A stretch of 64,000 nucleotides of DNA from Ignavibacteriaceae bacterium (GTDB taxonomy: Bacteria; Bacteroidota; Ignavibacteria; Ignavibacteriales; Ignavibacteriaceae). The stretch lies in NCBI GenBank assembly GCA_013359345.1, contig JABWCA010000001.1, forward strand, positions 1 through 64,000, in the 5' to 3' direction. A model generated the notes under the pieces. That model was not told the DNA's origin, searched no databases, and worked only from the letters and a program-made list of their open reading frames with translations. This document shows, piece after piece, positions 22,066-34,701 of the stretch. The position numbers and the translations under genes are program-made. Position 1 is the stretch's first letter; every line of letters starts with the position of its first letter.

Positions 22066-23247
22066 TTAATCTTCGGGGTGGAATGCGGTATTTGAGCCGA
22101 CCCATGTTTTATTTTTGTTAAAGTCAACTCCCATCATCTTCCCTTTGGAGAATCTGGTGAGATTATTCACCAGCATGGGCTTGTCATTCCAGAGAAACAT
22201 CATTCTTATTTCCACCTTTGAGGGTATATCGGGTGTTTCAACCAGCGGGGCATACTCAATCTTTTTCTGAAGAATGTAATTCTCTTTGTTCTGTTTGGAA
22301 TCAAGGCTTTCTTTTGTGACATCTATCTCAACCCCGAGCCCAGCAAATGAATAAAGAGGCTTAAGCACATAATTGTGCAGATCTTCAGGGTATTTATCAA
22401 TCTCATGAAGGAAATATGCCTCGGGCGAGTATTTTGTTTTAAGCCTGGGCAGAGTGTACTTGCTGATCCTGAAAAACCAGTCGGGGTGGCCAACCCACTG
22501 AACATCAAGCTCATCGGCAAAACTGAAGCCGAACTCAACGCCTGATCTTTCAAGTTCATCCTGGATAACCCTGTTGTAGATTCTTCTGATCTGAATCTCT
22601 TTTCCGTTTTTACTATAAAAGAGTTTATTACCGCGCTTTTTTACTTCTGTGAGGCATACAGGGGTTATGCCTGTGTAATGTTCGGTTGCAAGAAAATCAA
22701 TAAGTGTCTTCTGCTGATACGGATAGATCTCCAGAAGAACGGTTTCTTCGGGATCGGTGTCACCCACAATTGTATTATAAAGCAGCTTTTTGTAGCTCTC
22801 CAGGTTCAGGCCGTTATAGTATGCAGTAAAGCCTTCCGGGAGATGGAAATGTTTCTGATAGATTTCCTGAAAATAAGCCTGGAAACCGTAAAGTGACGGA
22901 AATCCCTGCAGTTCAATCAGTCTTGGTGTGAATCCGCCGTTTTCATCATTGCAGATGGCAAAATCTATCTGGAGAAACACAGGGTGTGAGGTATCACCCG
23001 GCACTTTAAGATGAGAGGGGATCCCGCTTTTTGAGAACTCCATATATTCTTTTGTGCTGATCTGGTCAATAATTTCACCGCACGCCTTTTTCAGTTCTGA
23101 TGTCAGTTCGCGTGAAAGGAAAAGGGGTGTCTCGCATACTCTGAACTCAATTTTGCTGTTAAGTGTATTGTTCAGGTCATCAACAAATGCGTTGTATTTC
23201 TCGTAAGAAAATTCCGAATTGTATTTTCTTCTGATCTCTTTTATCAT
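22066..23247 (-). CDS. Probable circularly permuted ATP-grasp ligase
   Basis: 393 residues, cytoplasmic, not a family I can name with certainty. Motifs suggest an ATP-grasp fold with shuffled order. An early acidic metal-ligand-like strand, PRLIELQGFPSLYGF near residue 110, resembles the IEFN motif of glutathionylspermidine-synthase-like enzymes. The nucleotide-binding lysine strand comes late, YVLKPLYSFAGLGVEI near residue 290, followed by ILQKKIEY and VEIRMMF near 320-345. It is the last of three ligase-type genes on this strand; a hairpin at 23318-23340 separates it from the GCS2 gene. It likely forms an amide or peptide-like bond on an unknown substrate. Confidence 0.6.
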   Translation of the reverse strand: MIKEIRRKYNSEFSYEKYNAFVDDLNNTLNSKIEFRVCETPLFLSRELTSELKKACGEIIDQISTKEYMEFSKSGIPSHLKVPGDTSHPVFLQIDFAICNDENGGFTPRLIELQGFPSLYGFQAYFQEIYQKHFHLPEGFTAYYNGLNLESYKKLLYNTIVGDTDPEETVLLEIYPYQQKTLIDFLATEHYTGITPVCLTEVKKRGNKLFYSKNGKEIQIRRIYNRVIQDELERSGVEFGFSFADELDVQWVGHPDWFFRISKYTLPRLKTKYSPEAYFLHEIDKYPEDLHNYVLKPLYSFAGLGVEIDVTKESLDSKQNKENYILQKKIEYAPLVETPDIPSKVEIRMMFLWNDKPMLVNNLTRFSKGKMMGVDFNKNKTWVGSNTAFHPED

Positions 23248-23317
23248 GGCTGTATAATTATCAGATAGTGGAGGAAAAACGGCTGCCGGTTTATTACTTG
23301 CTACGGCAGATAAAGAT

Positions 23318-23340
23318 GGGCGGAGTGTTAAGCTCCGCCC
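23318..23340 (-). terminator. GC-rich hairpin after the GCS2 gene
   Basis: Perfect 8-bp inverted repeat GGGCGGAG / CTCCGCCC (23318-23325, 23333-23340) with a 7-base loop, 6 bases past the stop at 23346. No strong T-tract follows, so some read-through into the next gene is possible. Confidence 0.55.
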
Positions 23341-23345
23341 GGAGT

Positions 23346-24461
23346 TTATTTCAAGTTCAGACCGAAATGAGTTTCATCAATTATATAATCCACCACGTTT
23401 TTGGTGTCATAACTCTGTTCCCACACAGCCAGCTGCCTGTCTGCACCGGTACCCATTTCAAGTATCTTCTTAATATTGTTTATTTCTTCACGGCTTTCAA
23501 GTTCATCAACCACCTCATCAACAAACTCAAGGAGTTCAAAGATAAGATCTGTTGTGGGCACTTCTTCTTTCTTCCCGAAATCAATCAGTTTTCCTGAAAT
23601 GCCGTATCTTGAAGCTCTGAATTTATTCTCGGCAATTAATGCCCTTCTGTAAAGCCTGAATCCGAGATTCTGTTTTATCAGCTTGTAAAGCTTTACAACA
23701 ACTGCCTGCATGAGTGCGGTGAGCGCTATCGTCTCATCTGCTCTCATGGGTATATCGCAGATTCTGAATTCAATTGTGGGGAAGAACGGATGCAGCCTTA
23801 TATCCCACCAGATTTTTTTTGCATTATCAATGCAGTTCGTTTTAATGAGGAGGTTAACGTAGTTATCGTACTCCCCTATACTGGTGAAATAATCAGGAAT
23901 GCCTGTTCTCGGGAAACGGTCAAAAACCTTGGTTCTGTATGATTTGAAACCCGTGTTTCTTCCCACCCAGAAAGGGCTGTTTGTTGAAAGTGCGAATATA
24001 TGAGGAAGGAAATACCTCACTGCATTCATTATATGGATAGCCATTTCGCGGTCTTCCACACCAACGTGAACATGAAGCCCGAAAATCAGGTTGGCCCTTG
24101 CAACAAGCTGCATATCATCAACCACCTGTTTGTATCTTGGGTGCTCCGTTATGCGCTGATCTTTCCAGTGAGAGAAAGGATGAGTGCCGGCCGCAGCAAT
24201 TCTCAGGTTGTTTTTGATCGCCAGTTTTGCAAGTTCGCTTCTGAGTTTGAAAACCTCAGTCCTTGCTTCTTTAATGTTCTTGCATACTCCTGTACCCGTC
24301 TCAACAACAGACTGGTGCATTTCCGGTTTTATGAACTCTTTAAGATAGAGTTCCCCGTCTTCATAGATCTGCTGTATGTGAGATTTCAGTTCACGTGTAA
24401 CCGGATCCACAATCTGAAATTCTTCTTCAATTCCTAAACTGAAAGTTGGGTTGTTAGACAT
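23346..24461 (-). CDS. Carboxylate-amine ligase, GCS2/YbdK family
   Basis: 371-residue ATP-dependent ligase of the glutamate-cysteine ligase type 2 superfamily. The opening SLGIEEEFQIVDP carries the acidic metal-binding cluster, and ANLIFGLHVHVGVED near residue 130 is the family signature. IEFRICDIPMRADETIAL near 235 also fits. YbdK itself has weak gamma-glutamylcysteine activity, and many members have unknown amine substrates. It starts 13 bases after the upstream ATP-grasp gene, so the two are in one operon. The gene pair implies sequential amide-bond formation. Confidence 0.9.
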   Translation of the reverse strand: MSNNPTFSLGIEEEFQIVDPVTRELKSHIQQIYEDGELYLKEFIKPEMHQSVVETGTGVCKNIKEARTEVFKLRSELAKLAIKNNLRIAAAGTHPFSHWKDQRITEHPRYKQVVDDMQLVARANLIFGLHVHVGVEDREMAIHIMNAVRYFLPHIFALSTNSPFWVGRNTGFKSYRTKVFDRFPRTGIPDYFTSIGEYDNYVNLLIKTNCIDNAKKIWWDIRLHPFFPTIEFRICDIPMRADETIALTALMQAVVVKLYKLIKQNLGFRLYRRALIAENKFRASRYGISGKLIDFGKKEEVPTTDLIFELLEFVDEVVDELESREEINNIKKILEMGTGADRQLAVWEQSYDTKNVVDYIIDETHFGLNLK

Positions 24462-24474
24462 ATAGGCTCTCTGC

Positions 24475-25416
24475 TTATTTAGCTGTATTCTTTATGAATT
24501 CACCCCATGTGGTGTTGTATTTCTTGGGGTTCCATGCCTTTGCTCTTCTTATTGCCATTTTTGCTGCGTTTTCAACCACCCATTCAAAGTTTTCCTCACC
24601 CACTGAATTTACGTCAGCATCGGGGGCAGGGTTGCAGAAATCGATTGCATAGGGAATTCCGTCGCGCACGGCAAATTCCACTGTGTTGAAATCATAACCG
24701 AGAGCGTTGTTCAGCTTCAGAACATATTCCCTGATCTTGCCGATAAGTGCCTTTGAGTGTTTTTTAGGCTCTCTCACGTATCTCAGGTGATGCGGCTGCT
24801 TGGGATCATAATCCATGATTCTGATCTCTTTCCTGTCAAGGCAATAGCATCTGAAATAGTCTGTGAACACTATTTCTTCCTGAAGCATCATAACCAGCTG
24901 ACCCGTTTCATGATATGCCTCAAAAAACTGTTCTCTGTTTTCAATGCGGTAAACATTTTTCCAGCCGCCGCCTGCAAAAGGCTTAAAGTATGCGGGGAAG
25001 CCTACGTAGTTGAAAATGCCGTCCCAGTCGAGGGGGTAAGCCAGGTTTCTGAATGATTTTGATGTCGTATCGGGCGGATGAACGTTTGAAGGAAGTATGA
25101 CAGTTTTAGGTACCGGAACTCCTATCTGAGTAGCGAGGGCATTGTTAAAGAATTTATCATCTGCGCTCCACCAGAAGGGGTTGTTGATTACGCATGTACC
25201 GGCTGCAGCCTCATTTTTGAGCATTGCCCTGTAAAAAGGCACATCCTGTGATATTCTGTCGATTATCACCGCATATCCGAGGGGCTGACCCATTGCAACT
25301 TTATCAACAGTTACATACTCAGCCACTATATCTTTTTCATTTTTGGAGTTGACTCTTTCCACAAAAGCAGGCGGGAAAGTCTCTTCCATTCCAAATAAAA
25401 TACCAATTTTTTTCAT
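24475..25416 (-). CDS. ATP-grasp ligase (RimK/D-Ala-D-Ala ligase-like)
   Basis: 313-residue ATP-grasp protein. The nucleotide-binding lysine is likely in FPAYFKPFAGGGWKNVYRI near residue 145, the glycine-rich loop follows directly, and the metal-binding end is FAVRDGIPYAIDFCNPAPDAD near 255-275 (IDFCNP replaces the usual E-x-N). The N-terminal domain is a short Rossmann-like unit (KKIGILFGMEETFPPAFV). The substrate is unknown. It is first in the unit that continues with the GCS2 ligase, with a promoter-like element upstream at 25488-25495. Confidence 0.82.
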   Translation of the reverse strand: MKKIGILFGMEETFPPAFVERVNSKNEKDIVAEYVTVDKVAMGQPLGYAVIIDRISQDVPFYRAMLKNEAAAGTCVINNPFWWSADDKFFNNALATQIGVPVPKTVILPSNVHPPDTTSKSFRNLAYPLDWDGIFNYVGFPAYFKPFAGGGWKNVYRIENREQFFEAYHETGQLVMMLQEEIVFTDYFRCYCLDRKEIRIMDYDPKQPHHLRYVREPKKHSKALIGKIREYVLKLNNALGYDFNTVEFAVRDGIPYAIDFCNPAPDADVNSVGEENFEWVVENAAKMAIRRAKAWNPKKYNTTWGEFIKNTAK

Positions 25417-25957: not shown

Positions 25958-27394
25958 TTATTTATCAGCTTTTTTATAATCTATGTTAATATCATAATTC
26001 CAGTTGTTGAAGTAGAGGTTTCCTGCCTTCCACTCAACTTCTCCTCTCTGGAAATCAACCGTTTCACTGCGCGGGTAAGTTTTTGCAGGAAACAGTTCCT
26101 GAGAATAATCATCATTAACCACAAAATGGTAAGCATCAATGTTCCCGAGGAAGAAATATCTGACCTGCGGGTCATCACTTTTCTGAAGTTTGAATGACTG
26201 ATCAACAGGCACCCATCCGGTCTGATCAAAGTAGATTTCGCACCAGTCATGCAGATTCACTTCAGGCGGATGAAGCATCCAGCCGCTCTGCCATCTTGCG
26301 GGAATTCCGTTCATTCTGCAAAGTGTCATAAAAAGCAGCGTCTGAATGCCGCAGTCGCCGTGCATATTTTCATAACAGTATGAAGAAATATTCGGAATGG
26401 TAGAATACTCAAGCGCACTTGCCCAGGGGATGTTGTCATTTATCCACTCATAAATCTTTTTTGCTTTAAGTGCCGGATCTGTTACTCCTGCGGTAATCTG
26501 CGCATTGAGATTTTTCAGCGCATCTGTATATACAATATGAGGTGCCCGTTCACCCGTGTGATTCTTAAAGGCTTCTGAAAGAGGATCAATAGTGTGGGTT
26601 TTGCTGAAATCAATCCCGGAAACTATACTATATCCCCTGAATGAATATGAAGCTTCAAACAGGGTTGGTTTTCCCGCTTCGGTAACAGCTTCAAGGTATA
26701 TTGTTCTCTGAAGCCGGTCGGAAGGTGCAATCACGGGGTTACTCCTGTTGGCAGAAATAAAGGTGAGATTCTCCTGCCTTCCTTTTATCTCCCGCGGGTA
26801 TGGCAGCCATACTCTAAGCACTTCACCCGCTGGTATGACATCAGGTTTCACGGTAAGGGTGTATCTAATCGTGAAATCAATTGGCATCACGCTTCTTTTA
26901 CCTGATGCGGCAGATTCTTTAAGCAGCTGAGGCAACAGTTCAGCCAGAAAGTTATCAAGCTCTCTCGGCTCATTCCCTTCAACTTCAATAAACCTCTTTT
27001 TAGCTTCTTTATTGATTCTGAAGAGATTTCTTGCCCCGTTTTTAAAATATTTTTTCACTCCGTTAATTCTCCGCATCTCAAGCGAGCCATCTCTTTCCCA
27101 TTTTTCAAGATCGGCTGATTTGATCCCCGGGTAGTACTTGCTGAGCCAGGCAAGCACATCATCTTCCGTTTTAGTGAAATCACGCTCTATCCTGAACATG
27201 AGATCTGTATAAAAATTGTAATTATATATTTCCTGCGGCGAGAGTCTGCCTGAGGCGAGTTCACCGGCAATAATGCTTTCCGCCTTTTTGAATTCACCGT
27301 TTTTAATCAGTTCATTTAATTTATTGTTGTTTCCGGTATTTTGTGCCATGACCGTAAATAAAAGAAGTTGTGTTAAAATTATGAGATATTTCAT
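25958..27394 (-). CDS. Exported transglutaminase-like protein
   Basis: 478 residues with a signal peptide (KYLIILTQLLLFTVMAQ). The C-terminal half has a transglutaminase-like core: Cys in MHGDCGIQTLLFMTLCR near residue 345, His in VNLHDWCEIYF near 382, followed by GWVPVDQS with the third acidic residue. The N-terminal half is a helical and beta region of unknown fold (PDVIPAGEVLRVWLPYPRE resembles the beta domain often found before such cores). It probably acts as a protease or amidase in the periplasm. It is divergent from the T9SS gene at 27543. Confidence 0.87.
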   Translation of the reverse strand: MKYLIILTQLLLFTVMAQNTGNNNKLNELIKNGEFKKAESIIAGELASGRLSPQEIYNYNFYTDLMFRIERDFTKTEDDVLAWLSKYYPGIKSADLEKWERDGSLEMRRINGVKKYFKNGARNLFRINKEAKKRFIEVEGNEPRELDNFLAELLPQLLKESAASGKRSVMPIDFTIRYTLTVKPDVIPAGEVLRVWLPYPREIKGRQENLTFISANRSNPVIAPSDRLQRTIYLEAVTEAGKPTLFEASYSFRGYSIVSGIDFSKTHTIDPLSEAFKNHTGERAPHIVYTDALKNLNAQITAGVTDPALKAKKIYEWINDNIPWASALEYSTIPNISSYCYENMHGDCGIQTLLFMTLCRMNGIPARWQSGWMLHPPEVNLHDWCEIYFDQTGWVPVDQSFKLQKSDDPQVRYFFLGNIDAYHFVVNDDYSQELFPAKTYPRSETVDFQRGEVEWKAGNLYFNNWNYDINIDYKKADK

Positions 27395-27542: not shown

Positions 27543-28385
27543 ATGAAATTTTCAGTTCTTTCAGTTTTAATATTTTTTCTTGCTGCCGGCACTTACGGGC
27601 AGATTCAGCTTCAGTGGACATCCTCCGCTATATCAGACGCAAATTTATCAGGTTTTATTGACTTTGAGAAATCAGGGCAGACATTCACTCAGAGGGTTTA
27701 CCTTCTTGATTCTCTCTCATTCAGAATCTGTCAGCCGGGTTTTTCGGTCACACCTCAGTACACATATACGTTTAATGCAGCAGAACGTCTTGCCGGCGCT
27801 CAGGTTTATTCAATGACAACCGATCTTGACGGCAACGGATATGTTGATTTTTATATAATCGGTTATGTGGGTACTTCAACAAATTACCGCCAGTCAATGA
27901 AGATATTTGACATCACCACCGGCGCTGCAATTCTTGAAAAAAATGATGCATCATTTTCCTACTCATACCCCACACTTGATGATGCAGACGGCAACGGATT
28001 ATATGAGTTAATTATTGCCAAATATCCGCTGCCTTATAACGGTACTTACATGCTTGAGGTTTATTCAACTAACGTCCCCTCAGATGTTAACGAAAACAAC
28101 AAGCCGTCATTGTTCAGATTACAGCAGAACTACCCTAACCCTTTTAACCCCTCAACAACCATTGAGTACTCGGTTTCTGTTCCGGGACTGACCGAATTAA
28201 AAATCTATGACATTTCGGGTCAGCTTATTAAAACACTGGTTTCAGAATTCAGGGAAGCCGGTGATTACAGTGTGAACTGGAACGGCACCGATAATTATGG
28301 CGGTAAGGTCCCTTCAGGCATTTATTTCTACAGAATGAACAACGGGGATAATTCAACTTCCCGGAAGATGATTTTATTAAAATAA
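27543..28385 (+). CDS. T9SS-secreted protein with FG-GAP/VCBS-like segment
   Basis: 280 residues. A signal peptide (FSVLSVLIFFLAAGTYGQ) is followed by a beta-rich domain holding two Asp/Asn/Gly calcium-loop-like stretches, TTDLDGNGYVDFYIIGY and DDADGNGLYELIIAKY, as in FG-GAP/VCBS repeats. The C-terminal sorting domain begins RLQQNYPNPFNPSTTIEY and ends SRKMILLK. It is the first gene of the long plus-strand string and lies 15 bases before the PqqD-like gene, which suggests co-transcription and perhaps a role in the same process. Confidence 0.88.
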   Translation: MKFSVLSVLIFFLAAGTYGQIQLQWTSSAISDANLSGFIDFEKSGQTFTQRVYLLDSLSFRICQPGFSVTPQYTYTFNAAERLAGAQVYSMTTDLDGNGYVDFYIIGYVGTSTNYRQSMKIFDITTGAAILEKNDASFSYSYPTLDDADGNGLYELIIAKYPLPYNGTYMLEVYSTNVPSDVNENNKPSLFRLQQNYPNPFNPSTTIEYSVSVPGLTELKIYDISGQLIKTLVSEFREAGDYSVNWNGTDNYGGKVPSGIYFYRMNNGDNSTSRKMILLK

Positions 28386-28400
28386 CTTAACGAGATAATC

Positions 28401-28655
28401 ATGAAAAAATTTGAAATTCCTGGCAATATAGCCGTCAGCGAAAGCGGATTCGCTTTCTCTCCTTCGAGCGGAGAAACCTTTAATTTCAATGAGCTGGGTG
28501 CATCTATCTATAAGAAACTCAGAGATAATGCTGATCCTGATCAGCTCATTAATGAAATGACGGATGAATTTGATGCCGACAGGGCAATAATCGAAAAAGA
28601 TCTTTATGATTTTATTTCTGAACTGAAAAAATTTGGACTTCTGAAAGAGTTATGA
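28401..28655 (+). CDS. PqqD-like small protein (RRE-fold peptide chaperone)
   Basis: 84 residues with the PqqD pattern: a beta-strand start (KFEIPGNIAVSESGFAFS), the FNFNELGASIYKKL strand-helix that corresponds to the conserved 'yxLNxtaaxIWxll' core, and a helical C-terminus with DLYDFISELKKFGLLKEL. PqqD proteins are RiPP precursor recognition elements that bind a leader peptide through a winged-helix groove. No radical-SAM partner or pqq gene is nearby. Its stop overlaps the ATP-grasp start (ATGA). The likely partner is the leader-like N-terminus of the decarboxylase two genes downstream. Confidence 0.8.
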   Translation: MKKFEIPGNIAVSESGFAFSPSSGETFNFNELGASIYKKLRDNADPDQLINEMTDEFDADRAIIEKDLYDFISELKKFGLLKEL

Positions 28656-29686
28656 AAATAGCAGTAACAGGCTTAAATGCCACCGATAACCCGGGTCCCG
28701 GGGTTCCAGTTATACGAAGCATTCAGATGGATAAATCCATTGATGCAGAGACCATTGGGCTGATTTATGACTCTCTTGAGCCCGGTATCTATATGGAAAA
28801 CATCCATAAAAAATGTTACCTGATACCCTACCCTTCAAGCGGTCTTGAGGGACTTTTTAACAGGTTAAAAGAAATCAATGAAATTGAAAAAATTGATATT
28901 ATAATACCTACTCTTGATTCTGAGCTTTATGCATTTATTAAGCTTGAACCCAGGCTGAATGAGCTTGGAATTAAGCTGTTTTTGCCGACCTCAGAGCAAC
29001 TCAATATCCGTTCAAAGGATAAATTGTTCAATTTCTGCAAGGCAAATGATATCAAGGTTCCTAAAAATATCACTGCAGGCAGCGTGCAGGATCTGTATAA
29101 TATCCCCTCGCTCGGTGATTATCCTGTTGTGGTAAAGGGGATCTTTTATGAAGCATATATAGTGAATAATTTTGAAGAAGCTGTGGCGGCTTTCCATAAA
29201 ATAGCATATAAATGGGGCTACCCGGTTATCATTCAGGAATTTGTTAAAGGCAGTGAGTATAATGTGGTTGCACTGGGCGACGGGAACGGAACAATGACCG
29301 GCGCTGTGGCAATGAAAAAACTGTATATCACGGATAAAGGGAAAGGATGGTCGGGGGTGACTATTCATGATCCAGCGCTTATCTCAATCAGTGAAAAAGT
29401 GATTGCAGCAACCAAATGGAAAAGCGGTATGGAGCTTGAGTTTATAAGAACTGCCGATACCGGAGAGTACTATCTGCTTGAAATCAATCCCCGTTTTCCG
29501 GCCTGGGTGTTTCTCTCACCAAATGCAGGGCAGAACCTTCCTGCGGCAATGGTGCACATGATTAAAGGTGAGAATGTGCCGCCGTTTACGGATTATAAAA
29601 CGGGTGTAATGTTTGTAAGGGCTGCATGGGATTTAATTTCTGATGTATCCACTCTTGAAAAAATTTCAACATTAGGTAATGTTTAA
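28652..29686 (+). CDS. ATP-grasp ligase (CarB-like)
   Basis: 344-residue ATP-grasp protein with an N-terminal Rossmann-like preATP domain (KIAVTGLNATDNPGPGVPV, then DIIIPTLDSELYAF near residue 95). The ATP-grasp core shows YPVVVKGIFYEAYI near 165, IIQEFVKGSEYNVVAL near 195 and the metal-binding MELEFIRTADTGEYYLLEINPRF region near 265-290 (ExN in LLEINPR). The last 30 residues are extra. It overlaps the PqqD-like gene by 4 bases. In RiPP and amino-acid pathways such enzymes activate a carboxylate as acyl-phosphate and join it to an amine; the substrate here is unknown. Confidence 0.88.
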   Translation: MKIAVTGLNATDNPGPGVPVIRSIQMDKSIDAETIGLIYDSLEPGIYMENIHKKCYLIPYPSSGLEGLFNRLKEINEIEKIDIIIPTLDSELYAFIKLEPRLNELGIKLFLPTSEQLNIRSKDKLFNFCKANDIKVPKNITAGSVQDLYNIPSLGDYPVVVKGIFYEAYIVNNFEEAVAAFHKIAYKWGYPVIIQEFVKGSEYNVVALGDGNGTMTGAVAMKKLYITDKGKGWSGVTIHDPALISISEKVIAATKWKSGMELEFIRTADTGEYYLLEINPRFPAWVFLSPNAGQNLPAAMVHMIKGENVPPFTDYKTGVMFVRAAWDLISDVSTLEKISTLGNV

Positions 29687-29705
29687 TTACCCCAAGGAGT
29701 TTATT

Positions 29706-31064
29706 ATGGAAAAGAAAAGATATGAACGACCGACAGTGATAAGACAGCACAGCGGATTTATGAACAAATTCGGCAGCAAGCAGATTGCCTCGGCTGTAAG
29801 GGAGATTGAGGGTATACCGGTAAGTTACCTTCTTGAAAAGTTCGGGTCACCCCTGTTTGTGATTTCAGAAAACAAAATCAGGGAAAACCAGAGAAAAATG
29901 AACCGTATTTTTAAGACGAGATACCCCCGGGTTCAGTTTGCATGGTCGTATAAAACCAATTATCTTGATGCGGTCTGTTCAGTGTTTCACTCAGAAGGAT
30001 CATGGGCTGAGGTTGTTTCGGGATTTGAATACGATAAGGCAAGAGCTCTGGGAGTAAGAGGCGAATACATCATTTTCAACGGGCCCGATAAAAGCCGCTC
30101 TGCACTTGAAAGGGCCATCAATGAATCCGCAAAAATACATATCGATCATTTTGATGAGCTTTATGATATTATCGAAATTGCAGGGATTCTCGGGAAAAAA
30201 GCGAAGGTTGCAATACGCGTGAACATGGATACGGGAATTTATCCTAAATGGGACAGATTCGGATTCAATTATGAAAACGGTGAGGCATGGCAGGCAATCA
30301 AACGGATAATTTCATCAAAGGAAATGGATCTGGTGGGGCTTCACACCCACATAGGCACCTACATGATGAGTGCCGATGCGTATAAAGTGGCAGCATCAAA
30401 GCTTGCAGCGCTTGCAACATCAATCAAATCTGAGTACGGTATACTGCTTGATTATATTGATATGGGCGGCGGTTTCCCCTCAAACAACACACTTAACGGC
30501 CAGTATCTGCCTGCAGAACAGGTGCTCCCTTCACCCGAAGAGTTTGCCGAAGCAATTTCGTCAGGTCTTTTTGAGATGCATTTCCGTCCCGATGAACTCC
30601 CTATGTTAATTCTTGAATCAGGGCGCGCGCTCATTGATGATGCCGCACACCTTCTTTCAACTGTTCTCGCTGTCAAGAGACTTTCCAACGGGAAAAGAGC
30701 GCTGATTATTGATGCCGGCCTTAATCTGCTCTTCACTAAACTGTGGTATAAACACCGCATTTCACCCGCGCAGGAGAGCGGACTTTTCACAGAGGATGTT
30801 GCGATCTACGGTCCCCTCTGCATGAATATTGACTGCATTGCCGAAAGCATTACTCTTCCGGTTCTAAAAAAAGGTGACAAAGTGGTTATAGACTACGTGG
30901 GAGCCTATGACATGACTCAATGGCTGCAGTTCATACACATGAGGCCAAACATAGTTATGATCATGAAAGACGGCTCTGTTGAGATCATCAGAAAAGAAGA
31001 GAACCTTGAGTATATTAAACAGCAGGAAATATTACCTGAATCACTTAAATTCACATTAAAATAA
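29706..31064 (+). CDS. Fold-III PLP-dependent decarboxylase with leader-peptide-like N-terminus
   Basis: 452 residues from ATG 29706, chosen because AAGGAG lies 8 bases upstream; the frame is also open from an ATG at 29679 inside the previous gene. Homologous to diaminopimelate/ornithine/arginine decarboxylases. The PLP lysine is in FAWSYKTNY near residue 84, the phosphate-binding strand includes LHTHIGT and DMGGGFP, the substrate arginine is in ESGRALIDDA, and the dimer-interface cysteine is in GPLCMNIDC. The first 18 residues, MEKKRYERPTVIRQHSGF, match the KKxYxxPxV leader pattern bound by RRE proteins in lasso-peptide systems. Neighbours suggest a modified amino acid or amine product. Confidence 0.88.
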   Translation: MEKKRYERPTVIRQHSGFMNKFGSKQIASAVREIEGIPVSYLLEKFGSPLFVISENKIRENQRKMNRIFKTRYPRVQFAWSYKTNYLDAVCSVFHSEGSWAEVVSGFEYDKARALGVRGEYIIFNGPDKSRSALERAINESAKIHIDHFDELYDIIEIAGILGKKAKVAIRVNMDTGIYPKWDRFGFNYENGEAWQAIKRIISSKEMDLVGLHTHIGTYMMSADAYKVAASKLAALATSIKSEYGILLDYIDMGGGFPSNNTLNGQYLPAEQVLPSPEEFAEAISSGLFEMHFRPDELPMLILESGRALIDDAAHLLSTVLAVKRLSNGKRALIIDAGLNLLFTKLWYKHRISPAQESGLFTEDVAIYGPLCMNIDCIAESITLPVLKKGDKVVIDYVGAYDMTQWLQFIHMRPNIVMIMKDGSVEIIRKEENLEYIKQQEILPESLKFTLK

Positions 31065-31115: not shown

Positions 31116-33260
31116 ATGAAATTATTCATCAATGCAATATTATACAGCTATGCCCAGATCTTTTTCTCAAACAGAAAATGGTTTGGGCTGCTGGCCCTCA
31201 TCTCAACTTTCGTGTTCCCTGAGATCGGGCTGCTTTCCCTTCTCGGAGTGGTGATATCCAACTTTGTGGCTGTGCTGCTCAAATTCGACAAAGGGAAAAC
31301 TGAAAGCGGTTTCTATGGTTTTAACGGATTGTTATTTGGTGCCTCAACGGCATTTTACTATCAGTTTTCACTTGAGCTGATCCCGGTGGTGATTATATTT
31401 ATTATTCTCACCTTTCTTATCTCATCAGTTCTTGAAAACTATATGGAAGCAGCTTTTAATTTACCGGGCCTTTCACTCCCCTTCATCCTTTCACTTTATA
31501 TTTTCCTGATTTATCTGGGGAACTATACCGGCATTGAATCAAAGGTGCTTTCTTCAGGTGATCTGCCGTGGGGAATCTCATTCGGTAAATTTTTTGACAG
31601 TTATTTCCACTCTCTCGCATTTATTCTTTTCCAGCCGGGAATCCTTACCGGAATAGTTCTTGCTGCGGGGCTGCTGCTTTTCTCAAGGGTGCTCTTCCTG
31701 CTGAGTCTCATTGCGTTCACGCTCAATTACTACATTCTGATGTATTTCCTCCCTGATTACATGAACAGCTTTCTTATCACAACAGGATTTAATGCAATTC
31801 TTACGGCATTTGCTCTGGGAGGCAGCCTCGTTTTGCCTTCAAGAAAAAGTCTTATGCTGGTGGTGATATCCACGCTGCTTGTTGTGATTATGTACGGATT
31901 CTTTTACAGGCTCCTCTATTCAACCTATCTGCCTGTGCTGGTGCTGCCTTTCAATTTCATTGTGCTCTCAACAATTTACTCGCTTAAATTCAGGCAGGAC
32001 ACCACAGATCTCGTGCTCCTCTATTTCAAGCCGGGTTCTCCCGAGGAAAACCTCTACTACCACAACACCCGCAAAAAGAGATTTGACAGGTTTAAATATT
32101 ATTTTGCAGAGCTGCCGGTATGGGGCGAGTGGTATATATCGCAGGCGTTTGAAGGTGAACATACCCATAAAAATGAGTGGAAATTTGCATGGGATTTCAT
32201 TATAAAAGACAATGAGAATAAAGAATATTCTGATAAAGGTTATGCGCTTCAGGATTATTACTGTTACAAACTGCCTGTGGTTGCAACTCTTGAAGGAAAG
32301 GTCGTAAAGGTTGTTGACGGCATACCCGACAACAAACCCGGCGATATTAATATCGAGAAAAACTGGGGGAACACTGTAATAATTGACCACTTTCAGGGGC
32401 TTTATTCGGCCGTTTCTCATCTTGTTCCGGGATCAATTAAGGTTAAGGAGGGTGATGTTGTTAAAAAGGGTGACCTTCTTGGCACCTGCGGAAACAGCGG
32501 ACGCTCACCTTATCCCCACATCCATTTCCAGTTTCAGCTGAACAATAAGGTGGGTGACTATACCTATAAATTCCCGATAGCTCATTTCATTGAGAATAAT
32601 AACGGCAAATACAGGCTCAGAACTTTTGATTACCCGGAGCTTGGCACAAGAATACAGAATATTGTTACGCACAAGACCATAAGAGGCGCTTTTGATTTTT
32701 CAATAAATGATGAGTTTACCGTTGAGTATCAGCTCGGAGGCAAAACGGCAACCGAAACATGGAAATGTCAGGTAAATATCATGAATCAGAAATATCTTGA
32801 GAATAACAAAGGCGATACGGCATATATTTATCCCGCTGAAAAGATATTTTATCTTTCAAATTATACCGGGGCAAAGAATTCGGCTCTTTATTACTTTTTC
32901 CTTGCAGCCTATGAGATTCCGCTTACTTTTCATGAGAATCTTGAGTGGGAGAGCCATTACAGCTATTCCCTGATGCCTTATTCGCTGCAAAGATATATAA
33001 CCGAGTTTTTCCTGTTTCTCGGGACACCTGTTACCGCCGCGGGAAGCTTTCATTATGAAGAGCGGCATGAAGATGATAAATTCTTCAGAGTGCATAATGA
33101 TATCAGCATACAAGGGCACGGATTATTCAGATTCATTCAAAGAAAGATTCAGTGCAGTCTTACTATTAATGAAGACGGAGTGATTGATTCTGTGAAAGTC
33201 AGCGCTCCGGGTACAGATTTTGAAACAAAGAAAATTGAATACAAAAGGAAGGCTTTATAA
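31116..33260 (+). CDS. Urea transporter fused to M23 metallopeptidase
   Basis: 714 residues. The N-terminal 300 or so are a polytopic membrane domain with both internal repeats of the UT urea-channel family: SGFYGFNGLLFGAS near residue 67 and TTGFNAILTAFALGGSLVLP near 225. The C-terminal half is a LytM/M23 domain: HKNEWKFAWDF near 350 supplies the H-x(n)-D zinc pair, GNTVIIDH near 418 and PYPHIHFQFQ near 468 supply the rest, and a beta-rich tail of about 230 residues follows. The zinc ligands look intact. It lies 51 bases after the decarboxylase gene and its stop shares one base with the next start (TAATG). Confidence 0.88.
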   Translation: MKLFINAILYSYAQIFFSNRKWFGLLALISTFVFPEIGLLSLLGVVISNFVAVLLKFDKGKTESGFYGFNGLLFGASTAFYYQFSLELIPVVIIFIILTFLISSVLENYMEAAFNLPGLSLPFILSLYIFLIYLGNYTGIESKVLSSGDLPWGISFGKFFDSYFHSLAFILFQPGILTGIVLAAGLLLFSRVLFLLSLIAFTLNYYILMYFLPDYMNSFLITTGFNAILTAFALGGSLVLPSRKSLMLVVISTLLVVIMYGFFYRLLYSTYLPVLVLPFNFIVLSTIYSLKFRQDTTDLVLLYFKPGSPEENLYYHNTRKKRFDRFKYYFAELPVWGEWYISQAFEGEHTHKNEWKFAWDFIIKDNENKEYSDKGYALQDYYCYKLPVVATLEGKVVKVVDGIPDNKPGDINIEKNWGNTVIIDHFQGLYSAVSHLVPGSIKVKEGDVVKKGDLLGTCGNSGRSPYPHIHFQFQLNNKVGDYTYKFPIAHFIENNNGKYRLRTFDYPELGTRIQNIVTHKTIRGAFDFSINDEFTVEYQLGGKTATETWKCQVNIMNQKYLENNKGDTAYIYPAEKIFYLSNYTGAKNSALYYFFLAAYEIPLTFHENLEWESHYSYSLMPYSLQRYITEFFLFLGTPVTAAGSFHYEERHEDDKFFRVHNDISIQGHGLFRFIQRKIQCSLTINEDGVIDSVKVSAPGTDFETKKIEYKRKAL

Positions 33261-33892
33261 TGAAAACCTTTTTATCTCTCTCAGTGCTTACAATTATTTT
33301 TATAGTTTCGGCAATCACTGTTAATGTCCTATCTCAGGAAAACGATTCTCTGGTTAAGGCATTTAACAGGTCGGTGAACTTTGAAGCAGAAAAGAATTAC
33401 ACATCTGCCATCTCAGAACTTGAAAAGTTCTCGGCAGAAGGCAGTAACGTATATCTTTTTAACCTCAGAATGGGCTGGCTCAAATACAGCACTGCCGATT
33501 ATGACGGTTCAATCAAATATTACAAAAAAGCGGCAGAACTCAACCCGAAAAGCCCTGAACCGCTTCTGGGGCTCAGACTTCCGTATGCTGCCCGCAATGA
33601 ATGGACCGAGGTCAAAAACATTTACAACAGTATAATTGCCCTTGATCCCAACAATTATGAGGCAAATCTCAGACTTGGTCAGATTGCCCTTAATGAGAAT
33701 CTGCAGTCAGCCAAATCATACCTTGAAAAGGCGTACACCATTTCACCCTCACAGTATGAAGCAAATCTCTCACTCGGGTACACTTATTATTATCTCGGCA
33801 ATTCATCCAAAGCGCGTGAACATCTCAACAATGCCCTTATGGTTTCTGAAAATGATTCACTGGCTCAGGCAGGATTAAAGTTACTGAAATGA
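33260..33892 (+). CDS. Exported TPR-repeat protein
   Basis: 210 residues with a signal sequence (FLSLSVLTIIFIVSAITVNVLSQ) and at least four tetratricopeptide repeats (DGSIKYYKKAAELNPKSPEP, NIYNSIIALDPNNYEANLRL, and the repeats ending SPSQYEAN and AREHLNNALM). It probably acts as a periplasmic scaffold. One-base overlap with the UT/M23 gene and a 4-base overlap (ATGA) with the next gene place it firmly inside the operon, between an inner-membrane and an outer-membrane protein. Confidence 0.9.
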   Translation: MKTFLSLSVLTIIFIVSAITVNVLSQENDSLVKAFNRSVNFEAEKNYTSAISELEKFSAEGSNVYLFNLRMGWLKYSTADYDGSIKYYKKAAELNPKSPEPLLGLRLPYAARNEWTEVKNIYNSIIALDPNNYEANLRLGQIALNENLQSAKSYLEKAYTISPSQYEANLSLGYTYYYLGNSSKAREHLNNALMVSENDSLAQAGLKLLK

Positions 33893-34701
33893 AAAAAGTA
33901 TTAATTCTCTCTCTGCTCCTTTTTACAGGCTCGCTGACCTTTGCAGATTCAACATATGTGTATGCTTCCTATTTCTATACATACGGCGATTTTTCAAACA
34001 AAGGGACATCAGATGATCACGGAGCCTATATCAGCACAGTTCTGGGCTACACCAACATTTTATCGGGTGCATTTAATAAAATTAACCGTGAAGATAAAGA
34101 CTGGCTGTATGAACAGAATTCATTTTTTGCGGGTTACACAAAAGTGCTGTTTCCCCTCTATCTTAAAGCTAACTATGCGCATATTACCGGCACCTTTGAT
34201 TACAAGCCTTATGAGTATCAGTATAAAGATAAAACAAACCTCTTTAATATAGGCGCTGCCTATTACGTGCCATGGTTTTATCTGAGTGCGGGAGCCACTT
34301 ACCTCAATGTTGACGGCTTTAAACCGGTTGATGTTTACAGCGGTGTGTTAAGAGCTGATTATGTGCCCAGCTGGTATTTCTCTCTCACTCTTGCCCCGCA
34401 GTACACAAAGGTTTCTGACGGAAGATCAATGTTCGGTCTGAACGTGAAGCTTAACTGGATGATCAATAATAATCTGATATTCAGAGGATCAGCTTTCACG
34501 GGTGAAAGAGCATATCATTTTGACAGCGATCTGTTCACGATTTATAATCAGGATGAAACTCAGAAACTGCTGCTTTCAGGAACCATTGAGCACAGGCTTT
34601 TTAATTCGTTTGCTCTTCAGCTTTCATATCAGTACAATGACTTCACCAATTATCAGGTAAACTATTATATTGCAGGTATAAAAACGAATTTTACGTTCTG
34701 A
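33889..34701 (+). CDS. Outer-membrane beta-barrel protein
   Basis: 270 residues with a signal peptide (KKVLILSLLLFTGSLTFA) and alternating aromatic/polar strands throughout (for example FFAGYTKVLFPLYLKANYAH, FNIGAAYYVPWFYLSAGATY). It ends in Phe (IKTNFTF), the classical outer-membrane barrel terminus. The pattern resembles YaiO-type small barrels, but I cannot assign the family. Overlaps the TPR gene by 4 bases. Confidence 0.75.
   Translation: MKKVLILSLLLFTGSLTFADSTYVYASYFYTYGDFSNKGTSDDHGAYISTVLGYTNILSGAFNKINREDKDWLYEQNSFFAGYTKVLFPLYLKANYAHITGTFDYKPYEYQYKDKTNLFNIGAAYYVPWFYLSAGATYLNVDGFKPVDVYSGVLRADYVPSWYFSLTLAPQYTKVSDGRSMFGLNVKLNWMINNNLIFRGSAFTGERAYHFDSDLFTIYNQDETQKLLLSGTIEHRLFNSFALQLSYQYNDFTNYQVNYYIAGIKTNFTF

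Follow-up and report, generated by a model that had tools for sequence, protein, structure and literature searches.

Why does a predicted metabolic enzyme begin with what looks like the leader of a lasso peptide? This question is raised by a decarboxylase gene in a 64,000-nucleotide stretch of an Ignavibacteriaceae genome (the window), the nearest named relatives of which are Ignavibacteria. A sequence-only reading of the window had pointed to a KKxYxxPxV segment at the N-terminus of the enzyme and to an RRE-fold gene two genes upstream, and had suggested that the enzyme is recruited by the RRE or that its N-terminus is a carrier or substrate. Translation from the ATG at 29706 bore out the segment, and the upstream gene proved to be a PF05402 (pqqD) gene, separated from the decarboxylase by a single ATP-grasp gene. 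In order, the operon runs pqqD, ATP-grasp, decarboxylase, urea-transporter/M23 fusion, TPR protein and outer-membrane-type protein, and the genes around the decarboxylase are the following.

28401 to 28655, plus strand: discrete PqqD-family RRE protein (PF05402, E 7e-12, above its cut-off)
28652 to 29686, plus strand: ATP-grasp ligase, CarB/PylC-like (Pfam ATPgrasp_Ter and ATP-grasp_3), overlapping the RRE gene by 4 bases
31116 to 33260, plus strand: urea-transporter domain fused to an M23 metallopeptidase (PF03253, 7e-46; PF01551, 7e-15)
33260 to 33892, plus strand: TPR protein of the operon, in 63 of 80 loci
33889 to 34701, plus strand: predicted outer-membrane-type protein, the Ignavibacteria version of the operon, in 28 of 80 loci

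The last of these products had no NCBIfam match and no other family match; its sequence suggests an outer-membrane type.

The start of the decarboxylase is well supported because a ribosome site, AAGGAG, lies at 29694-29699, six bases 5' of the ATG. Residues 1-23 (29706-29774) read MEKKRYERPTVIRQHSGFMNKFG, and the protein runs from this conserved tag through a variable linker into the catalytic domain.

29706 to 29774, plus strand: leader-like tag, residues 1-23 of the translation, a conserved block in alignments of 70 to 139 sequences, with AlphaFold pLDDT below 50
29721 to 29738, plus strand: putative RRE-contact core YERPTV (YxxPxV), residues 6-11, assigned from [YF]xxPx[ILV] conservation and the lasso RRE motif (PMC13381572)
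29754 to 29774, plus strand: second conserved element, G17-x3-K21-F22-G23
29775 to 29804, plus strand: variable linker of low conservation, residues 24-33
29805 to 31064, plus strand: AR-fold (type III) PLP decarboxylase domain, residues 34-452 (Pfam Orn_Arg_deC_N / Orn_DAP_Arg_deC)

The tag thus precedes a 419-residue enzyme domain in a 452-residue protein. No core peptide follows it, and the features of a lasso leader end (a short core peptide, a penultimate Thr or Ile) were not found.

Related loci came from a genome collection (80 loci) and from searches of whole genomes at the level of the class, the phylum and four orders, and 139 non-redundant PqqD-decarboxylase pairs were assembled. 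Pro9 is present in all 139 pairs, residue 6 is always Tyr (97) or Phe (42), and residue 11 is always Ile, Val or Leu, giving a core of YxxPx[ILV] in 97 pairs and FxxPx[ILV] in 42; [YF]xxPx[ILV] also occurs in 126 of 126 distinct decarboxylase proteins. Lys21 and Gly23 are each kept in 138 pairs, Gly17 in 135 and Glu7 in 132. Gly17, eight residues C-terminal to Pro9, is the weakest of the near-invariant tag positions, and the conserved block reaches K21-F22-G23, farther than had been described. Positions 5, 10, 12, 14, 15 and 24-29 drift in the alignment, and linker residues 27-29 are the least conserved of the whole decarboxylase. A loss of Tyr or Pro among orthologues, which would have counted against the idea, was looked for and not seen, Phe being the one alternative to Tyr. 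Since Pro9 is invariant, Tyr or Phe at position 6 and Ile, Val or Leu at position 11 are universal, and neighboring residues drift, the presence of KKxYxxPxV in the decarboxylase N-terminus is not due to chance.

The conserved tag looks like an extra, disordered piece of the enzyme. An AlphaFold model of the monomer, built on a 70-sequence alignment, gave residues 1-20 a mean pLDDT of 40-44 and no secondary structure; pLDDT stays below 50 over residues 1-25 and reaches about 95 from residue 31, where the confident catalytic domain sets in. The model being of a monomer, the tag might become ordered on the partner subunit of a decarboxylase dimer. Solved homologues have no counterpart of the tag, their matches starting at decarboxylase residues 28-44. 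The tag was also absent from 12 LysA-type relatives, and no PqqD was detected in their available flanks, which included only a short upstream stretch in three of them, two of these being the same gene.

The PqqD-family protein resembles the RREs that read lasso leaders. Its AlphaFold model is a winged helix of the PqqD fold that matches RRE families, with TM scores of 0.81-0.86 to leader-bound TbiB1 and TfuB1, and a sequence search found TbiB1 (1.7e-11), TfuB1 (1.7e-10) and PbaB1 (2.8e-5), with PqqD itself at 0.01. By both sequence and fold, its best PDB matches are lasso RREs solved with YxxP or WxxP leaders. The ligand motif of lasso RREs is [Y/W]xxPx[L/V/I/F/A] (PMC13381572), which the decarboxylase tag carries near its N-terminus. 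In the LppB-LppA complex, D70 makes a hydrogen bond to the leader Tyr, and N33 grips the backbone at the Pro; N33A nearly abolishes the complex and D70A weakens it, and F74 of LppB, like F83 of PbaB1, divides the two pockets (PMC13381572). These contact residues have counterparts in the window, among them both of the LppB residues with mutational support for YxxP binding (as Asn30 and Asp67).

28488 to 28490, plus strand: RRE Asn30, LppB N33 equivalent as mapped by alignment, Asn in 139 of 139 pairs
28599 to 28601, plus strand: RRE Asp67, LppB D70 equivalent, covarying with tag residue 6 in the 139 pairs
28611 to 28613, plus strand: RRE Phe71, LppB F74 / PbaB1 F83 equivalent, Phe in 129 of 139 pairs

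The same genome encodes a second, unrelated PqqD-family protein between transporter-like and peptidase genes (L115:1474-1854, minus strand; G000:C14).

The RRE and the tag vary together. Position 67 was chosen from the LppB contact, and its trend with tag residue 6 was first spotted by eye in 13 sequences, then tested in 120 sequences and again in 139. All 97 pairs with a Tyr tag have Asp (85) or Asn (12) at RRE position 67, and all 42 with a Phe tag have Tyr (31), Ser (8), Ala (1), Phe (1) or His (1), a switch without exception in 139 pairs. From these sequences, a putative hydroxyl acceptor is kept at RRE position 67 only where tag residue 6 has a hydroxyl. Phe at residue 6 falls outside the stated lasso consensus, yet it is paired with a changed RRE residue. 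By APC-corrected mutual information, pair 6-67 stands above all others among 37,632 column pairs between the two proteins. Normalised mutual information, which is not APC-corrected, places it 11th, and the ten pairs above it, which involve the near-invariant PqqD columns 11 and 75, most likely owe their rank to a handful of unusual sequences. The runner-up PqqD column misassigns 19 of the 139 sequences, and position 67 misassigns none.

On a tree built without the tag or PqqD, both traits change at least three times each, and the joint trait likewise needs just three changes. The first switch, to Phe, lies at the root of a 55-member clade with support 0.997, within which there are two reversals to Tyr, one with Asn and the other with Asp at RRE position 67. 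Under uniform rates, the rough chance that three independent changes hit the same three branches would be 2e-7, rising to 2e-5 once 84 columns are allowed for. An independent-pairs test, on a tree that counted four changes per trait, yielded 2-4 pairs, all concordant and too few to reach significance; tree-based sign tests have no power here because the Tyr/Phe switch occurred only about three times. Covariation of the tag with the ATP-grasp ligase was not distinctive, the tag appearing in 2 of the top 50 pairs with 2.6 expected.

The two partners also occur together. Strict clustering placed PqqD in 65 of the 80 loci, and a profile search found it in all close loci whose upstream sequence was long enough. 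Genomes that carry the pqqD gene and lack the tagged enzyme would speak against recruitment; of the 294 class genomes, the tagged enzyme was found in 47 (E <1e-140) and PqqD in 48 (E <1e-13), and in the one extra genome (G188) the contig ends about 0.7 kb past pqqD, within the ATP-grasp gene. Of the other partners, the ATP-grasp ligase is found in 78 of the 80 loci and the urea-transporter/M23 fusion, which has no described role in the literature searched, in 76. Decarboxylase searches gave a match at E<=1e-40 in 59 of the 294 class genomes, the tagged enzyme in 47 of these, and matches at E<=1e-100 in 34 of 396 genomes across the phylum. Because these counts are so patchy, the operon is accessory in Bacteroidota rather than housekeeping. 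A plasmid search and a PHROGs search found nothing.

Several neighboring genes deserve mention in their own right. In locus L068 (780-1379) and 15 other Bacteroidota loci, the gene directly upstream encodes an AraC-type helix-turn-helix protein with an HMA-like Cys-Cys N-terminus, suggesting metal- or thiol-responsive control of the operon. In the window, the region upstream of pqqD (27543-28385) encodes a protein whose C-terminus bears a type IX secretion signal; about 30 of the 80 loci have homologues of it. An extra TPR-containing protein of about 445 amino acids, possibly of the outer membrane, lies between the urea-transporter/M23 and TPR genes in 38 loci (for example L069:5614-6945). Farther upstream, on the minus strand (22066-25416), a YbdK-type carboxylate-amine ligase of the GCS2 family is flanked by two proteins (one weakly RimK-like, the other lacking a family match; possibly ATP-grasp). 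This cluster represents a further amide-forming pathway nearby and is not among the conserved neighbors of the operon.

A lasso RRE and a lasso-type motif might be expected to mark a lasso-peptide cluster, a reading that our searches rule out. A search of the genome for the B2 transglutaminase-like leader protease family (PF13471) gave nothing at E<=0.001, and for the lasso cyclase (PF00733) there were just short marginal matches, none of them full-length and none on the contig of the operon. The short YxxP open reading frames near the operons were either internal starts, at Met codons within operon genes, or unique frames scattered here and there. No short precursor gene recurs around the operons, although one could lie unlinked to them. 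A DNA pattern scan of the genome for the tag core returned the decarboxylase and one other match, at which no precursor-like open reading frame was evident. Adjoining the operon, on the minus strand at 25958-27394, is a gene for a secreted-looking protein with a transglutaminase-like core. We rejected it as a leader protease, its main match being PF01841 and its position outside the core set of the operon.

The catalytic domain points to a different kind of chemistry. It is an AR-fold decarboxylase with an intact PLP site, in which Lys83, His215, Gly254-256, Glu304-x-Gly-Arg307, Cys372, Asp376 and Tyr401 are invariant across the family, with catalytic roles that we take from family knowledge. 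Its nearest solved enzyme by sequence and fold is FslC/FigC (7kh2), at about 31% identity, and its scores fall under the NCBIfam cut-offs for FslC, LysA and DokD. BtrJ is the ATP-grasp ligase of butirosin biosynthesis, and the BtrI/BtrJ/BtrK system likewise joins such a ligase to an AR-fold decarboxylase, there acting on a carrier-bound amino acid; the butirosin carrier is a separate acyl carrier protein, whereas our operon lacks a carrier gene and has an RRE and a tagged enzyme instead. FslC/FigC, an N-citrylornithine decarboxylase, also acts after a ligase (PMC7857480), but this ligase is an NIS synthetase, not an ATP-grasp enzyme, and FslC/FigC has neither an N-terminal tag nor an RRE partner. 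FigC groups with SbnH, AcsE, MccE and BtrK, which decarboxylate amino acids that are already conjugated (PMC7857480). On the RRE side, TbiB1/TbiA (5v1v), TfuB1/TfuA (6jx3), PbaB1/PbaA (9x90) and LppB/LppA (9x8z) share with our protein the fold and sequence, the YxxPx[I/V/L] ligand, the Asn and Asp contacts and the pocket-dividing Phe. Their ligand is a precursor peptide, whereas ours forms the N-terminal end of a metabolic enzyme of 452 residues, in a genome that, unlike lasso systems, has no match to the B2 protease family or to a full-length cyclase.

The explanation that we favor, at a probability of roughly 70%, is that the tag is a built-in RRE-binding peptide that docks the decarboxylase on the RRE for a ligase/decarboxylase complex. 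Residues 1 to about 15 would form the binding peptide within the enzyme, and the PqqD-like protein would grip YxxPx[IV] in its sheet/helix 3 cleft as a lasso RRE does its leader. Asp67 would take hold of Tyr6, and Asn30 of the kink at Pro9. Docking would bring the decarboxylase and the RRE together in a small biosynthetic complex that presumably also includes the ATP-grasp ligase. There the ligase would conjugate an amino acid to a partner molecule, and this conjugate would be decarboxylated by the tagged enzyme, as in FslA/FslC and BtrJ/BtrK. With an ATP-grasp ligase encoded alongside, a ligate-then-decarboxylate pathway in which the RRE holds the decarboxylase in the complex is the simplest reading, and recruitment may serve substrate hand-over. 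The tag and its conservation, its disorder in the AlphaFold model, the fold of the RRE, their co-occurrence and the covariation are computed results, and we strongly infer that tag and RRE bind physically; that the RRE binds the decarboxylase tag seems very likely indeed. The suggestion that the RRE recruits the enzyme is well supported at the sequence level because every tag has its Pro and either Tyr or Phe, PqqD co-occurs with it and residues 6 and 67 covary perfectly. A peptide-recognition module has apparently been repurposed for enzyme recruitment, with the RRE changing in step with the tag.

Docking alone does not explain the conservation of Gly17, Lys21 and Gly23, which lie past the leader stretch that an RRE contacts. 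This leaves some room for the N-terminus as a substrate or carrier in cis, where the RRE would read YxxPxV as a leader, the ligase would aminoacylate the GFMNKFG element at Lys21 and the same enzyme would decarboxylate the product. Lys21 and Gly23, each in 138 of 139 pairs, lie beyond the contacted stretch, the ATP-grasp ligase and AR-fold decarboxylase repeat the BtrJ/BtrK combination, and a separate precursor gene was not found around the operons. Borosins (omphalotin methyltransferase) are enzymes with a RiPP-type peptide segment in cis and carry their own core, a precedent together with BtrK acting on BtrI-bound glutamate, although the borosin segment is a C-terminal core substrate and ours an N-terminal recognition sequence. 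The relatives FslC, SbnH, AcsE, MccE and BtrK all act on conjugated amino acids (PMC7857480), and the corresponding end of the LppA leader has been suggested to serve modifying enzymes (PMC13381572). However, one orthologue (L031) has Gln21, the operon has no conserved leader protease and the 10-residue variable linker may keep residue 21 from the active site. We consider this reading unlikely, and the specific proposal that the decarboxylase is its own RRE-presented carrier, with the conjugate built by the ligase on Lys21 and decarboxylated by the same enzyme, slightly more so; a docking-only role is preferred over an added carrier or substrate role.

The true ligand could also be a precursor encoded elsewhere, which the tag would mimic. 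The tag would then be a decoy or regulator that competes for the cleft or reports its occupancy. RREs are otherwise known as binders of precursor peptides (PMC7470986), and an unlinked precursor could hide in the genome, but the scan for the tag core offered no candidate beyond the one match described above, and the RRE and tagged enzyme co-occur essentially one to one, which makes this very improbable. That the segment is an ordinary structural N-terminus (a lid or dimer contact) with a coincidental YxxP is the least credible reading, since, even though conserved N-termini are often structural and our model is a monomer, no solved relative has the segment, the model leaves it disordered, and residue 6 covaries with the RRE cleft above every other inter-protein pair.

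The pairing of an RRE with a YxxP ligand is already known. Among CC-licensed papers we found none that describes its use on an enzyme, an RRE/PqqD paired with this decarboxylase or a leader-like enzyme tag, and an earlier description elsewhere is possible. The prevailing view takes RREs to be devoted to reading the leaders of RiPP precursors, and a PqqD-like gene serves in genome mining as a flag for RiPP clusters; here, a lasso-type RRE appears to read the tag of a metabolic enzyme. Docking of the decarboxylase on its RRE would show that RRE and YxxP form a transferable docking pair, would account for some RRE genes without a precursor and would point to a ligation-decarboxylation product. 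If the carrier-in-cis pathway on Lys21 were true instead, it would join RiPP recognition to small-molecule synthesis. The Tyr/Asp versus Phe/other co-switches are a ready natural experiment in specificity, and possibly a source of orthogonal pairs for engineering.
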